Shown here piece after piece: positions 37,241 to 43,064 of a stretch of 49,381 bases of DNA. Origin of the DNA: Rikenellaceae bacterium (GTDB lineage: Bacteria; Bacteroidota; Bacteroidia; Bacteroidales; Rikenellaceae); NCBI GenBank assembly GCA_017379895.1, contig JAFNVH010000049.1, forward strand, positions 1 through 49,381, written 5' to 3'. Within the stretch, counting starts at the first letter, position 1. The number at the start of each line of letters is the position of its first letter. The translations under genes and the position numbers were made by a program. The notes beneath the pieces were generated by a model. It saw only the letters and a list, made by a program, of their open reading frames with translations, searched no databases and was not told the DNA's origin.

Positions 37241-38902
37241 TTATTCCGTTTTTTGTAATTTTGATTTGTCTATTTTCAGTTTGATGGGTAGTATCTTTTC
37301 GTGCTCAACATCTTTAATCGTGAGCGGTTTGAATTTCATCTTTTTTGAACCTACGATCGTGAACGAGCGGTTGCCGACAACGGTCTGCTCGCGACCTTCG
37401 AGCCACTTGGCAAAGAGTGAGTCGCGCTGAGGCTCTTTCCAGCCGATGAAGAGTACCGAGCGATGCGGCAGAGCGTCGAGGCTGTCGAGCTGCTCGACGT
37501 CGTAGATCGGTTCACACGGCTGTCCGAGATAAATATCCATATTCTGCCCGCTGCGGAAACGGTAGAAAGCATAGTGGTTGATACCCTCTGCCTCGGCCAC
37601 CTCCATAGCCTTTGCCGAGAGGTCGCCAACGCCCAATTGGCGGTTGAACTGCGGTATTGCGGGAGTAGCGAGGGCGATCATCGCCAACAGACCACCGCCG
37701 CACCAAACGATCGAGCGCTCGATCTCTCCGCGCCACAACTGCCACAGCGACACGCACGATGCAACGAACAGAGCGCTTAACGCAACATAGCCCCACGCAA
37801 GCGAGTCATACTCGACGGGTATCAGGTTGCACACATCGGCCACTACCGCCGCGGGTAACAGCACAACGAACACCGCAGGGGCAAAACCGGCTGCCCACTT
37901 TGCCCATTTCGTCTTCTCGAATTGTGGCAGCCACAACATTGCCAGATAGACTACAAAGGGGTAGATCGGCACGAGATAGATATCCAGCTTTGAGCTAAAC
38001 AGCGAGAGCATAACGAACGTAGCGGCGATCGCCACCATAAACAATCTTTCGAGATCCGTGCGTACCATTCTTCGCCACGCACCTGCGCCCAGCACGCCCA
38101 CCAACAGGAACACCCACGGAGCGAACGACTGCGGAATATGTGCGATGTAGTACCACCAGGGACGTTTGTGGTGGAACGAGTCGATACCGCGTCCGATAGT
38201 CTGATGGAAGAGTAGGTTGTTGATGTACTCAGCGCCGCCCTCGATGTAGACCAGTGTCCACCACGCGGCACAAAGTCCGATCAGCAGGCCCCACTGACGC
38301 AATCCCATATATCGCCCGAAGGTGCGTATCTGGCCCTTCACTGCGAGGAAAACCGCAATCACCAGCACGGGCATCATAAAGCCTACGGGACCTTTGGTGA
38401 ATGTTGCGAGAAATATCCACACGGGTAGCAACCAGCGGTGGTATGAGTGCCCCGTACCGCGATACAACCGCCAGAAGGTGTAGATCGCCAGCACGATAAA
38501 GAAACACATCAGCATGTCCATTCGCAGCACCAGCGCGCTACCGAGGAACATACCCGTAGTTGCGAGCATCACATCGGCGGCTTTCGGGTCGAACGAGGGC
38601 ATCTCCTCGCGCACCCAGCGCCCCATTACGGCGAGTATTCCCGCCACGGGCAGCACGCTCGCCAGCGCGATAAACCACATCTGATACGACCCGAACAGCA
38701 GTTTCGAGAGCATTACGATCCAGAGGTACAAGGGTGGTTTGTCGGCGTAAGCCTCGCCGTGGTTGTAGAACGAGAACCAGGTTCCGTCGCGCAGAGCCTC
38801 TTCGGCAATGCTTATGTATTTCAGCTCATTGTTGAGCGTGTAGTCGCGCAGCAGAAAGGGCGCGATGAGAGCGGCTGCAATGAGCAGATGACGCAGTTTC
38901 AT
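37241..38902 (-). CDS. ArnT-like membrane glycosyltransferase (GT39/GT83 superfamily)
   Basis: 553 residues with about 12 helices followed by a soluble C-terminal domain, the ArnT/PMT layout. Near the N-terminus, NNELKYISIAEEALRDGTWFSFYNHGEAYADKPPLYLWIVML corresponds to the first periplasmic loop with its conserved KPPLY. In most relatives this loop opens with Asp-Glu; here it opens Asn-Glu, which may be a lineage variant or affect catalysis. The enzyme is expected to transfer a sugar from a polyprenyl-phosphate carrier to lipid A or a similar acceptor on the periplasmic side. It is first in the operon with GT2 and LAB_N. The promoter TACATTTG lies 25 nt upstream. Confidence 0.87.
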   Translation of the reverse strand: MKLRHLLIAAALIAPFLLRDYTLNNELKYISIAEEALRDGTWFSFYNHGEAYADKPPLYLWIVMLSKLLFGSYQMWFIALASVLPVAGILAVMGRWVREEMPSFDPKAADVMLATTGMFLGSALVLRMDMLMCFFIVLAIYTFWRLYRGTGHSYHRWLLPVWIFLATFTKGPVGFMMPVLVIAVFLAVKGQIRTFGRYMGLRQWGLLIGLCAAWWTLVYIEGGAEYINNLLFHQTIGRGIDSFHHKRPWWYYIAHIPQSFAPWVFLLVGVLGAGAWRRMVRTDLERLFMVAIAATFVMLSLFSSKLDIYLVPIYPFVVYLAMLWLPQFEKTKWAKWAAGFAPAVFVVLLPAAVVADVCNLIPVEYDSLAWGYVALSALFVASCVSLWQLWRGEIERSIVWCGGGLLAMIALATPAIPQFNRQLGVGDLSAKAMEVAEAEGINHYAFYRFRSGQNMDIYLGQPCEPIYDVEQLDSLDALPHRSVLFIGWKEPQRDSLFAKWLEGREQTVVGNRSFTIVGSKKMKFKPLTIKDVEHEKILPIKLKIDKSKLQKTE

Positions 38903-39027: not shown

Positions 39028-39054
39028 CGAGCGACCCTTTTGCGGGGTCGCTCG
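39028..39054 (-). terminator. Terminator of the distal lipoprotein gene
   Basis: A perfect 10-bp stem, CGAGCGACCC (39028-39037) with GGGTCGCTCG (39045-39054), and a 7-nt loop. On the minus strand it is followed by TTGTTTGTGG. Its right arm contains the TCGCTCGG that marks the left edge of the tandem duplication. Confidence 0.75.
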
Positions 39055-39060
39055 GAGAGG

Positions 39061-39656
39061 TTATTGGTTGTTATTGGTATTACTCAATATATTATGCCAA
39101 AAATTTAGATATTCGCTCATTGGCTTTGCGTTTTCGAAAGATTTAAGTAAATCAGTTGATAGTGATGTGCGAGCAAAAGCCTTGTAGTGGCGATTTAGAT
39201 TCTTATCGTCCTTACAACGCTCTATGCTCATCTGCATTGGTTCAATAAGAATAATTGAATCATTTGTAAGTTTCAGTATGTCATACATTGTTGTACTCGA
39301 CATTCCACTATACATTTTGTAATTCTCTAAGTCAATCGGATTCTCGCATTTGTTTTCAACAAATGATTGCTCGATTTTGGGAGAAATGCATTTAGTGTAA
39401 AGATATGGCGTTACATAAATGTCATCAATAGCCAAATAAGTATAGGTGTCTACGCTTAAAAAACAGTACTTGGCATTTTTATGAATTCGGTTGGCTTCCC
39501 ATTTTCGTAATGAATGTATTTATCCTCAACTTGAAGATAATAGCCATTCATATCCGAACGGGTAATCTCTCGATCGATCTCAATATCGGGAATCTCAAAT
39601 TTTTCGCACGCCACCGCCGCGCAACAAAGTACCAAAAGGAAAAGTAGTTTTTTCAT
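39061..39656 (-). pseudogene. Lipoprotein paralogue A, split by a -1 slip in a T6 run
   Basis: From the ATG at 39656 a lipoprotein signal (KKLLFLLVLCCAAVAC) and 66 residues are read to ...KMPSTVF, then a TAA at 39456-39458. Stepping back one base within the six-T run (39458-39463 on the plus strand as A6) continues as LSVDTYTYLAIDDIYVTP...YLYTKC to the stop at 39061. This restores a protein of about 198 residues aligned end to end with the intact neighbour (39861-40448), including PSTV, xxTKC, PIDL and ILIxPM landmarks. It may be a pseudogene, a phase-variable gene or a sequencing error; slippage during expression could also rescue it. Function unknown. Confidence 0.7.
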
Positions 39657-39663
39657 AATCAAA

Positions 39664-39671
39664 CAAAGTTA
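39664..39671 (-). promoter_or_regulatory. -7 element for lipoprotein A
   Basis: TAACTTTG on the minus strand, a perfect TAnnTTTG match, ending only 7 nt before the ATG at 39656. As at 21351-21358, this would make a nearly leaderless message. The matching position in the other duplication unit has no such element. Confidence 0.45.
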
Positions 39672-39747
39672 GAGTGTTTATTATATAGACGTTCGACGAG
39701 GCCATTTTGTGCCACGACAATGCAACTTTTTTTGCTGATGTTTTTAA

Positions 39748-39855
39748 CTATTTGATAAACAACCTATAAATATCGTTTCCGTTTGCATACAAAAGCAGTG
39801 CAAACAGCACTACCAAACCGAACATCTGAGCATATTCGAGGAACTTATCGCTCGG
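39748..39855 (-). pseudogene. Duplicate fragment of the rseP 3' end (last 35 codons)
   Basis: Read on the minus strand, 39855 to 39748 encodes PSDKFLEYAQ, then MFGLVVLFALLLYANG, then NDIYRLFIK and a stop. It matches residues 409-443 of the RseP encoded at 40557-41888, with one change (Met for Ile). The DNA differs at 13 positions in 12 codons, and 11 of these are silent. The fragment has no start and its 5' side is joined to unrelated sequence at TCGCTCGG. It is a dead remnant, but its substitution pattern is that of a gene under protein-level selection, not of a decaying pseudogene. Confidence 0.82.
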
Positions 39856-39860
39856 AGAGG

Positions 39861-40448
39861 TTATTGTTGTTTGCAATTAAAATCTTTGCAGAAATCGACA
39901 TCTTCCCGTTCAAACGGATTGTCGCTGTGCTTAATGTATGTAATCGAATTGAAGTTTGCCGTCGGAGTTGTTCGCTCATAGACAATGTAGTTGCGCCAGA
40001 AACTTTGATTATCCGATTTAGCTGCTTTTTCCATAGGCTTAATCAATATGATTTGATCATTTGTGAATTTGTAAATCTCCATTGAGCCTTGCCAAACCAA
40101 TCTGTTTTGCAGGTCAATAGGAGAGTTATAATATTCCCAGCAAAAGACCTTCTTGTCGTTACATTTCGTGCAATGATATTCGTGCAACATATCCAAAGCA
40201 CCGTCTTCTACTCTAAGGTAGCCGTATATATTTACAGTCGAAGGATTGTAGCTATCCATCTCCTCAGGCTCTCCAAATCTAACGGGGATGCCATTCTCGT
40301 AAAACACGTTTGTGTTTTTTACAACCATATATAGACCATTGGCAGTGTTGGGATCAAGTTCGCCCACCTCGGGAAAATCGAAGTGTCCCTCTTTCTCGCA
40401 CGCCACCGCCGCGCAACAAAGTACCAAAAGGAAAAGTAGTTTTCTCAT
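39861..40448 (-). CDS. Lipoprotein paralogue B, unknown function
   Basis: 195 residues. The signal peptide and lipobox MRKLLFLLVLCCAAVAC (Cys17) predict a lipid-anchored envelope protein. The mature part shows NGLYMVVKNTNVFYENGIPVRFGE, then PSTVNIYGYLRVEDG, CTKCNDKKVF, SPIDLQNRLVWQGSMEIYKFTNDQIILIKPME and a C-terminal cysteine-containing tail. Its CTKC hints at a disulfide or metal site, but paralogue A keeps only TKC. No known family was recognised. It lies 108 nt downstream of rseP on the same strand and may be expressed by read-through. The lineage-specific paralogue pair evolves fast in the body while the signal-peptide DNA stays nearly identical. Confidence 0.75.
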   Translation of the reverse strand: MRKLLFLLVLCCAAVACEKEGHFDFPEVGELDPNTANGLYMVVKNTNVFYENGIPVRFGEPEEMDSYNPSTVNIYGYLRVEDGALDMLHEYHCTKCNDKKVFCWEYYNSPIDLQNRLVWQGSMEIYKFTNDQIILIKPMEKAAKSDNQSFWRNYIVYERTTPTANFNSITYIKHSDNPFEREDVDFCKDFNCKQQ

Positions 40449-40556
40449 AATCGAATAGTTTTTAGTTGTGTTCTATATATATATAGACGCAAAATGACCC
40501 CGTTTCGTTGCATCAAAGTGCAAAAAAATGCAACTTTTTTCGTATTCGGCTCGCAA

Positions 40557-41888
40557 CTACTTGATAAACAGCCTATAAATATCGTTGCCGTTGGCGTAGA
40601 GCAGCAGCGCGAAAAGCACTACCAAACCGAAAATCTGCGCATATTCGAGGAACTTATCGCTCGGCTTGCGGCGTGTGATAACCTCCCACAGCAGGAACAG
40701 CACGTGACCACCGTCCAATGCCGGAATAGGCAGAATATTCATCACTGCCAAAATCACCGACAGCAGTGCTGTCGTCAGCCAGAAACGCTCCCAATTCCAC
40801 TCGCTGGGGAAGATGTTGCCAATCGACAAGAAACCACCCAGCTCCTCATAGAGTTTGCTCTCGGGCACGACCATAGCCTTGATCTGCTTCCAGTAGCCAC
40901 TGATCTCCTCGCCCGTGCGGCGCATACCTGCGGGAATCGACTCCAACAGTGTATATTCGCGCATACGAGCCACGAACGGACTGCGTGCCATAACGCCGAT
41001 CGAGCCATTCTCGTCGAGCGTCACAACCGCCTCGCGTGCCACAACCACATTGGCGCTATCGCGCTCGATACCGAGCGTTACGGTCTGACCTGCCAAGGCG
41101 GGTAACTCGCGCTTATACTCGTCGAAGTAGCGCATCTCGACGCCATTGAGTGCCACCAGACGGTCGCCACTGAGCAGACCCGCCTCGCGTGCCGCGTCGG
41201 TCGCTACGCTATCGAGTTCGAAGGGCATACGCATCGCATACATATTCTTATAGCCCCCCTCCTGACGCATCTTGACCAGCTGCTCCAACGGAATGTTGAA
41301 GGTGTGCTCCGCGCCACCGCGCTCGACAACCACCTCGCGATCCTCGGCCGTAATGAGCAATTCGTTGACGATCTGATCCACCTCGGTGATCTCTGTGCCA
41401 CCGATCGAGAGTACCTTGTCGCCGTCCTCGAAACCGAGTTCGTGACCTGCGTCGCTCCAAACGTAACCCCACTGCGCATCCTCGGCAGGCATATAGGGCT
41501 CGCCCCAATGGTAGCAGATACCGCAGTAGATCACAAATGCCAGCACCACGTTCATCACCACGCCCGCAACCATCACAATCAGGCGCTGCCAAGCGGGTTT
41601 CGAGCGGAACTCATCGGGCTGAGGCTCGGCGGCCATCTGCTCGGTGTCCATACTTTCGTCGATCATACCTGCGATCTTGACGTAGCCACCCAGCGGTAGC
41701 CAGCCCATGCCGTACTCGGTCTGTCCGCGACGGAACTTGAAGATCGAGAACCAGGGGTCGAAAAAGAGATAGAATTTCTCAACGCGAATGCCGAACATAC
41801 GTGCGGCCAAAAAGTGTCCCAACTCGTGAATAATCACCAGCAGCGACAAACTCATAAAGAATTGAATTACTTTGATCAGAATATCCAT
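40557..41888 (-). CDS. rseP: Site-2 protease RseP
   Basis: 443 residues, an inner-membrane zinc protease that cleaves membrane-bound regulators or signal peptides within the bilayer. The zinc site HELGH is at 21-25 in the first helix, and the third ligand is Asp392 in IPALDGGH. Between them lie two PDZ-like regions (about 130-205 and 215-300), with AGHELGFEDGDKVLSIGG and AGLLSGDRLVALNG. Four helices in all. It is downstream of dxr (24 nt gap), a common pairing in bacteria. The last 35 codons were duplicated at 39748-39855. The HEXXH and LDG motifs are intact, so the gene is expected to be functional. Confidence 0.95.
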   Translation of the reverse strand: MDILIKVIQFFMSLSLLVIIHELGHFLAARMFGIRVEKFYLFFDPWFSIFKFRRGQTEYGMGWLPLGGYVKIAGMIDESMDTEQMAAEPQPDEFRSKPAWQRLIVMVAGVVMNVVLAFVIYCGICYHWGEPYMPAEDAQWGYVWSDAGHELGFEDGDKVLSIGGTEITEVDQIVNELLITAEDREVVVERGGAEHTFNIPLEQLVKMRQEGGYKNMYAMRMPFELDSVATDAAREAGLLSGDRLVALNGVEMRYFDEYKRELPALAGQTVTLGIERDSANVVVAREAVVTLDENGSIGVMARSPFVARMREYTLLESIPAGMRRTGEEISGYWKQIKAMVVPESKLYEELGGFLSIGNIFPSEWNWERFWLTTALLSVILAVMNILPIPALDGGHVLFLLWEVITRRKPSDKFLEYAQIFGLVVLFALLLYANGNDIYRLFIK

Positions 41889-41912: not shown

Positions 41913-43064
41913 TTACAAACCGAGAGCCTCGCGTGCCAAAGCTCGTGCCTCGGCGTCCGAGTATGCATAATCGTCGAGTGTAGGGTGGGCGATGAAGGTC
42001 GCACGCACGAGCGATTGCTCGATCGAGCGAACGATATCCAGATAGCCGATCTTACCCGCGAGGAATGCCGCCACGGCCACCTCGTTTGCGCCGTTCATCG
42101 TGCAGGCTGCCGTGCCACCGCGACGCAGACAGTCGTAGGCCACATCCAATGCGGGGTACTTCACGCGATCGACTTCGCGGAAGGTGAGGTTGGGGTTAGC
42201 CAGGAAATCGAAACGCTCCGTCGGGCGCGACTTACGCTCGGGGAAGGTGAGCGCATAGCTGATCGGCAGGTGCATATCGGGCGTACCTAGCTGCGCCTTG
42301 ATTGCGCCGTCCTCAAACTCGACCATCGAATGAACGATCGATTGGGGGTGGATCAGTACCGAGATCTGATCGGCGGGAGTGCCGAACAACCATCGTGCCT
42401 CGATCACCTCGAAACCCTTATTGACCATCGTTGCGCAGTCGATCGTGATCTTTGCGCCCATCGACCAGTTGGGGTGGCGCAGAGCCTCAGCGGCGGTCAT
42501 ACGACTCAGCTCCTCGATCGGTGTGTCGCGGAAGGCCCCACCACTTGCCGTGAGGATCAATCGACGCACGGGCGACTGCTCGCCAACCAAACATTGGAAG
42601 ATCGCCGAGTGCTCCGAATCGACGGGCAGAATCGGTGCGCGGTGCTCTGTTGCAAGGCGCATCACCAACTCGCCACCAACCACCAGTGTCTCCTTGTTGG
42701 CCAAGGCGATCTTTTTGCCTTTGCGCACAGCTGCGACCGTCGGCAGCAGACCTGCGTAGCCGACCAGCGCATTGACCACCACGTCTACATTCGACCCTGC
42801 CGCAACATCTTCCATCGCTTTAGCACCGGCATAGACCTTCGTGTCGGTCGTCGCCAAAGCCTCTTTGAGCGGAGTGTAGTATTGCTCGTCGCCGATTACC
42901 ACACAGTCGGCATCAAATTCGATTGCCTGCTGGGCAAGTTGCTCCCAATTGCGATTGGCAACCAAAGCCGTTATCTCGAATTGTTCGGGGTTCTCGCGCA
43001 CGATGTCGAGCGTCTGCACGCCGATCGAGCCGGTCGACCCCAAGAGTGCTATACGTTGTTTCAT
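41913..43064 (-). CDS. dxr: 1-deoxy-D-xylulose 5-phosphate reductoisomerase
   Basis: 383 residues, the usual length. The enzyme makes 2-C-methyl-D-erythritol 4-phosphate with NADPH, the committed step of the MEP isoprenoid pathway. It begins MKQRIALLGSTGSIGVQTLDIV (NADPH site). It continues with ALVGYAGLLPTVAAVRKGKKIALANKET and PVDSEHSAIFQCL (the metal-binding Asp-Ser-Glu). The flexible loop follows in LTASGGAFRD, then HPNWSMGAKITIDCATMVNKGFEVIEARWLF, and later NGANEVAVAAFLAGKIGYLDI. All catalytic motifs are present. It is 6 nt downstream of the M23-like gene and 24 nt upstream of rseP. Confidence 0.96.
   Translation of the reverse strand: MKQRIALLGSTGSIGVQTLDIVRENPEQFEITALVANRNWEQLAQQAIEFDADCVVIGDEQYYTPLKEALATTDTKVYAGAKAMEDVAAGSNVDVVVNALVGYAGLLPTVAAVRKGKKIALANKETLVVGGELVMRLATEHRAPILPVDSEHSAIFQCLVGEQSPVRRLILTASGGAFRDTPIEELSRMTAAEALRHPNWSMGAKITIDCATMVNKGFEVIEARWLFGTPADQISVLIHPQSIVHSMVEFEDGAIKAQLGTPDMHLPISYALTFPERKSRPTERFDFLANPNLTFREVDRVKYPALDVAYDCLRRGGTAACTMNGANEVAVAAFLAGKIGYLDIVRSIEQSLVRATFIAHPTLDDYAYSDAEARALAREALGL

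Follow-up and report, generated by a model that had tools for sequence, protein, structure and literature searches.

A repeated rseP 3′ end between two lipoprotein genes in a Rikenellaceae genome suggests displacement of a gene end at a housekeeping locus

The DNA analyzed here, referred to below as the window, is a single MAG contig of 49,381 nucleotides (C62 of a 1.5 Mb assembly, G000). Its minus strand reads, in order, dxr, rseP, a first lipoprotein gene (B), a copy of the rseP tail, a second lipoprotein gene (A), a hairpin terminator and a membrane glycosyltransferase-like gene (Table 1). We call the last glycosyltransferase-like by its general likeness; it had no match in Pfam. The lipoproteins are separate genes, lying 108 (B) and 91 (A) bases past the respective rseP stops and not fused in frame to rseP. 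AVAC at the end of the B signal peptide is presumably the lipobox. In A, a first frame ends at 39456 and a second reads from 39453 to 39061, both matching the lipoprotein family; the frame change near the six-T run may reflect a broken gene, phase variation or an assembly error. The two copies of the rseP tail lie 809 bases apart (40664 to 39855), and parts of the spacer, the lipoprotein leader (55/57 bases) and 13 bases behind the lipoprotein stop also recur. The rseP-tail copy is thus part of a tandem unit (rseP tail, spacer, lipoprotein) rather than a lone fragment.

Table 1. Features of the rseP-lipoprotein interval (window coordinates)
Feature	Position	Strand	Remarks
Resident rseP	40557..41888	-	intact, 443 aa site-2 protease, Peptidase_M50 and PDZ; PF02163, E 2.5e-55
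Putative imported rseP end	40557..40622	-	left edge about 40614-40632, possibly up to 40670
Spacer with presumed promoter of lipoprotein B	40449..40556	-	diverged from spacers of A and G126
Lipoprotein B	39861..40448	-	intact, 195 aa, signal peptide ending AVAC
Junction CCGAGCGA	39848..39855	-	common to lipoprotein terminator stem and start of rseP tail
Displaced, putatively native rseP 3′ end (fragment)	39748..39855	-	35 codons and stop
Spacer before lipoprotein A	39657..39747	-	matches rseP-lipoprotein spacer of G126
Lipoprotein A	39061..39656	-	two frames, split near T6 run at 39458-39463
Intact hairpin terminator behind A	39028..39054	-	32/34 bases as in G126
Membrane glycosyltransferase-like gene	37241..38902	-	next in order in 4/4 clade members

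DNA matching rseP was found in 172 of 180 genomes of the genus, at 86% identity over the whole gene in three only (G018, G126 and G127), which are the relatives compared throughout; the next whole-gene match was at 67% (G050), and the others covered shorter stretches at up to 81%. The distance from the rseP stop to the glycosyltransferase-like gene is 35 bases in G018, 35 in G127, 814 in G126 and 1654 in the window, with none, none, one and two lipoprotein genes, respectively, behind rseP. G018 and G127 have an identical 35-base spacer here though their rseP genes differ by 14%, and G126 rseP is 96.5% alike to that of G127, yet G126 has a lipoprotein gene where G127 has the 35-base spacer.

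The fragment and the resident tail (40557-40664) align without gaps and are identical at 95 of 108 bases. A preliminary description of this DNA had counted 13 base changes in 12 of 35 codons, 11 of these codons being silent, and our count is the same, the sole amino acid change being ATG (Met) vs. ATT (Ile). The tails thus agree at 34 of 35 residues, a conserved part that was kept while the lipoproteins differ. When 13 random substitutions, with transitions favoured, were placed in the 105 coding bases, the mean number of amino acid changes was 8.5 and none of 20,000 draws gave one or fewer. Since random substitution never yielded the pattern, the differences between the tails arose under protein-level selection. 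This agrees with the preliminary statements that random decay would give mostly amino acid changes and that the two tails parted as the ends of two working rseP genes. That description also took the fragment to lack a start codon, which needs qualification: a 42-codon frame that begins with TTG at 39876 enters the fragment in frame, running from behind the B stop across its whole length (39748-39876, minus strand), and could encode a small hydrophobic peptide. A promoter inside the tail may still account for selection on its bases: a sigma-70-type scan gave 4 sites vs. 5.7 in shuffles, and Bacteroidales promoters differ from that type.

The silent pattern alone leaves both copies as candidates for having changed, since silent changes are also expected in a resident gene under selection. 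Comparison with the relatives singles out the resident tail. The fragment differs from G127, G018 and G126 at 6, 7 and 7 of 108 bases, respectively, and the resident tail at 17, 19 and 18, while the tails of the relatives differ among themselves at 5-9. At the sites where fragment and resident disagree, the relatives carry the base of the fragment in 12 cases and that of the resident in none or one (relative-rate test, p 0.0005-0.0023, treating the relatives as outgroups). If the free copy had taken three quarters of the changes, the probability that it holds at most one of the 13 would be 6e-7. Own sites, counted against all three relatives, make up 0 of 4 informative sites in the fragment and 12 of 17 in the resident tail, vs. 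141 of 392 for G000 in dxr plus rseP outside the tail, a set from which the resident tail differs with Fisher p 0.008. The change point of the resident-only sites falls at rseP nt 1275 (40614), with 11 of 11 from this base on and a fraction of 0.36 before; no permutation of 2000 was equally good. Upstream of it, nt 1257 and 1218 are resident-only and nt 1263, 1264 and 1267 are not. When 59 further tails from the genus are compared, the base of the resident outnumbers that of the fragment at 10 of the 13 sites, which fits newer states common to the fragment and the relatives; silent sites are near saturation at this distance, and a shared G+C leaning could contribute.

In a tree of 53 tails over 105 columns (48 distinct tails of the 59 others were used, tails with an internal stop or unknown base within the 35 residues being dropped), the fragment and its three relatives formed one group (97/97); the resident fell just outside, all five together receiving 100/99. 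The grouping with rseP of another lineage that the preliminary description looked for was therefore found, and it supports the proposal that two alleles were joined later through recombination with a related lineage. The sister relationship of fragment and resident that was named as refuting evidence fared less clearly: the tree places the resident outside, and the AU test does not reject the two as sisters (p 0.363, 105 columns, tails only). With so few columns, an unsettled bootstrap and this AU result, the tail tree alone is no proof. By distance, the copies are not nearer to each other than to their orthologues (13 differences between fragment and resident vs. 6-7 between fragment and relatives, out of 108). 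The case for import is carried by the site counts and the noncoding spacer.

It should be noted that an excess of own sites is found elsewhere. The ratio G000 : G018 : G126 is 14 : 3 : 2 over the last 92 bases of rseP, 11 : 5 : 3 over rseP 1000-1110 and 21 : 4 : 4 over dxr 42000-42149 (150-base windows). The excess in the tail is thus not unique evidence for import, and the two other stretches may be further imports or fast-changing DNA. What sets the tail apart is its second copy, a fragment in the same genome with no excess of own sites. Between rseP nt 865 and 1026 (window 40863-41024), the resident gene is near G018 (10 differences per 108 bases) and far from G126 and G127 (25-32), unlike in other parts of the gene; this is a second mosaic stretch, pointing to exchange within rseP.

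The spacers show the same contrast between the two units. The spacer before A matches the rseP-lipoprotein spacer of G126 at 88 of 90 aligned bases, with 18 gap columns of which 16 are one repeat of G126, vs. 72 of 88 aligned bases and 39 gap columns for the spacer before B. Spacers have no codons, so that protein-level selection cannot explain this contrast. The A spacer is closer to G126 than silent sites predict, and the A unit may therefore also have been exchanged. A and the G126 lipoprotein are both followed by a complete hairpin terminator, and B by no more than the beginning of its first arm; from the A terminator to the next gene, the DNA is 88% alike to G126.

The title claim of the preliminary description, that the fragment is the imported allele, is thus not supported: the fragment lies at much the same distance from each of the three relatives and lacks changes of its own, and the outliers are the resident tail and the B spacer. 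Tail distances, own-site counts, the change point and the spacer match to G126 indicate that, with the proposed polarity reversed, the native end of rseP is most probably the fragment. The left border of the foreign stretch then lies at or within the repeated tail.

The right border can be placed by comparing the B side, the A and G126 side and the rseP tail. Behind the B stop comes CCTCTCCGAGCGA and then the rseP tail TAAGTTCC, so that the break reads CCTCTCCGAGCGA/TAAG; behind A and in G126, the corresponding DNA is CCTC(T/A)CCGAGCGACCCCGCAAAAGGGTCGCTCG with a complete hairpin, and the rseP tail starts with CCGAGCGATAAG. From these sequences, the joint is an 8-base match, CCGAGCGA, inside the terminator stem. 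The match is not rare in itself, since the window holds this 8-mer 10 times, counting both strands.

The lipoproteins gave a mixed picture. The second frame of A is 31% identical to B over 105 amino acid positions, in keeping with the preliminary remark that the lipoprotein bodies differ strongly. It scores 57 bits against the G126 lipoprotein and 44 against B, a weak difference that concerns the second frame only. The expectation that the neighbouring lipoprotein would group with A is hence borne out slightly for the protein, at 33-42% amino acid identity, and not for the DNA of the bodies: A and the G126 lipoprotein are 80.4% alike as DNA, no better than shuffled sequence (75.3-82.6%). The other pairs of bodies (76.8 and 77.0%) lie inside this A/G126 range; the aligner used for spacers and bodies is gap-rich and inflates identities, and shuffling was applied to the A and G126 bodies only. 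The tail, spacer, leader, terminator and following spacer of the A unit are 88-98% alike to G126 in aligned columns, the A leader matching that of G126 at 49 of 55 bases with 4 gap columns. Behind the stop, A and B share the single base that departs from G126. This shared base and the near-identical A and B leaders fit in-place duplication better than a wholly foreign B unit. The nearest relative of B (56% amino acid identity) is a gene at another locus of G127 (C7:34378-34962), and the G126 lipoprotein behind rseP is only 33% alike to B. Given that the A and B leaders are alike, that B is nearest to a G127 gene and that the second frame of A is nearer to G126, the B unit is itself probably a mosaic.

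No other genome with B at the rseP end was found among 180 genomes of the genus and 268 of the family, where only G126 and G127 gave matches (E <= 0.001). A profile of the three lipoproteins matched 29 of 180 genus genomes at E <= 0.01; the matches outside G000, G126 and G127 were all weak (E >= 7.6e-5) and confined to the first 84 positions, much of which is signal peptide. B had no telling match in Pfam, NCBIfam or PADLOC, the family libraries returned chance-level matches only, and PDB sequences likewise (best E 0.099; we read the repeat-protein rows as chance). In G127, an insert of ~800 bases (region 6190-7130 of L105, C7) holds the B-like gene and is flanked on either side by a copy of one hairpin terminator, the two copies having diverged; at the same place, G126 (L214, C9) and G018 (L215, C66) have a single hairpin and no lipoprotein match. 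A lipoprotein gene may thus have been gained at a terminator a second time in G127. In G126, a remoter relative of the family stands alone (L209, C11, 6752-7456) beside genes whose sequences look fructose-bisphosphate aldolase-like and fumarase-like.

The search for a donor gave no source. No other genome among the 180 of the genus had a resident-type tail. In a scan of genome contigs, only one locus (L106) was near among the best 80 of 569 matches, and the other 79 of these, at 46-52% identity, were left out. The fragment was matched by 62 of the 180 genus genomes, and G000 alone had two matches. A literature search of titles and abstract openings found no published account of the locus. A rough date can be given. 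At fourfold sites in dxr and in rseP (1-999), G000 is 0.36-0.66 substitutions per site away from the three relatives, or about 0.18-0.33 on a single branch; had the fragment been free since the species split, it would be expected to hold some 19-36 changes over its 108 bases. One base of the fragment is absent from both the relatives and the resident, and by this rough measure the tail lost its function late.

Our preferred reading, which we consider fairly probable, is that the fragment is the native end of rseP and that the last 60-100 bases of the resident gene, the spacer behind it and probably the B body were imported at the CCGAGCGA joint. The ancestral order would have been rseP, lipoprotein A and terminator, as in G126. 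Incoming DNA from an unsampled lineage near the clade, made up of its rseP end, another spacer and lipoprotein B, would have entered through the rseP end. One border would be homologous, within the final 108 bases of rseP or at their edge, and the other would be the 8-base match between the stem of the lipoprotein terminator and the rseP tail. The incoming end would restore an intact rseP, with B taking the adjoining place, and would shift the native rseP end, dead from then on, and A, whose frame is now split, further downstream. What we observe directly is the mosaic with its approximate edges, the junction, and the states found in the relatives. We infer from them one event, either a single crossover of a circle or a one-sided join, rather than duplication followed by allelic exchange. 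A single crossover of a circle bearing the tail and a lipoprotein gene is expected to leave two copies of a conserved stretch and foreign DNA that starts within the first of them; if the unit was instead duplicated in place and its first copy then exchanged, the outcome would be the same.

That the resident rseP is native, and the fragment and A came from a G126-like lineage, seems to us rather unlikely. Although the fragment and the A spacer are near to G126 and A is slightly nearer to the G126 lipoprotein than to B, the fragment is no nearer to G126 (7 differences) than to G018 (7) or G127 (6), the own-site excess in rseP is sharpest over its last ~60 bases, and both the intact terminator and the G126-like DNA leading to the next gene lie on the A side. 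We give still less credence to a tandem duplication in place through the 8-base match, without any import, after which the resident tail diverged silently. It would account for the nearly identical leaders, the AU test allows the sister tails that it predicts, dxr of G000 holds another stretch rich in own sites, and microhomology-bounded tandem units are common; against this, it needs 12 changes in the copy under selection vs. 0-1 in the free one, and the noncoding spacer of A is nearer to that of another species than to that of B. Just as improbable, in our view, is a two-step history in which the native unit was duplicated through CCGAGCGA and the tail, spacer and lipoprotein body of the first unit were later exchanged by homology: it explains why the common leader and post-stop bases stand alongside a foreign tail, spacer and body, and rseP is mosaic elsewhere (the windows from nt 865 and 919), but it takes two events where one suffices, and none of the 62 genomes (of 180) matching the fragment was seen to have two native-type units.

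The preliminary description went further and saw a cassette-like site for swapping lipoproteins beside a core gene. That the site varies is clear from the lipoprotein counts of the four species, which differ at this interval in a clade-restricted, strongly diverged lipoprotein family. The stronger version, that the rseP end is a standing docking site and that a mobile unit of rseP end and lipoprotein circulates in and near the clade without an integrase, we regard as unlikely. If it were true, each entry would rebuild rseP and shunt the earlier lipoproteins downstream, producing a growing archive beside an envelope protease gene, and the B-like gene of G127 between its diverged terminators would be the trace of a like process elsewhere.

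Under the preferred reading of displacement by an incoming rseP end, the locus resembles several known systems. In the displacement of Rhs C-terminal tips, for which Jackson et al. 2009 (PMC2935791) propose single crossover of a circular intermediate, a new variable part likewise comes to stand behind a conserved stretch and the old one is shunted downstream with a conserved piece. Here, the displaced copy carries such a piece in the form of the final 35 codons and stop of rseP, the conserved gene upstream (39748-39855). Unlike in Rhs, the stretch conserved here forms the end of a housekeeping protease whose protein is nearly unchanged, the variable cargo is a separate lipoprotein gene, and the conserved copies differ by 12%, whereas identical cores are reported in that paper.

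The orphan immunity gene arrays of T6SS, formed via effector displacement (Kirchberger et al. 2017, PMC5361080), also combine a homologous anchor on one side with a non-homologous join on the other, and keep the displaced gene downstream, in one T6SS case with a shifted effector 3′ end. In contrast to these arrays, we recognised no toxin or immunity gene here, and the displaced lipoprotein gene is frame-split. One homologous and one illegitimate border are likewise features of homology-facilitated illegitimate recombination as summarized in PMC3240628. Compared with the mechanism sketched in that source, the left edge, if at 40614-40632, lies downstream of the right joint on the recipient; some recipient bases would then be doubled, and a simple linear one-sided join would not fit.

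By analogy with these systems, the locus would act mechanistically like gene-end displacement, at a housekeeping gene and with its protein all but unchanged. It may thus offer a small and recent example of such displacement with a lipoprotein cargo, in a gut Bacteroidales clade, in which the remnant of a core gene can show which of two alleles is the newcomer.
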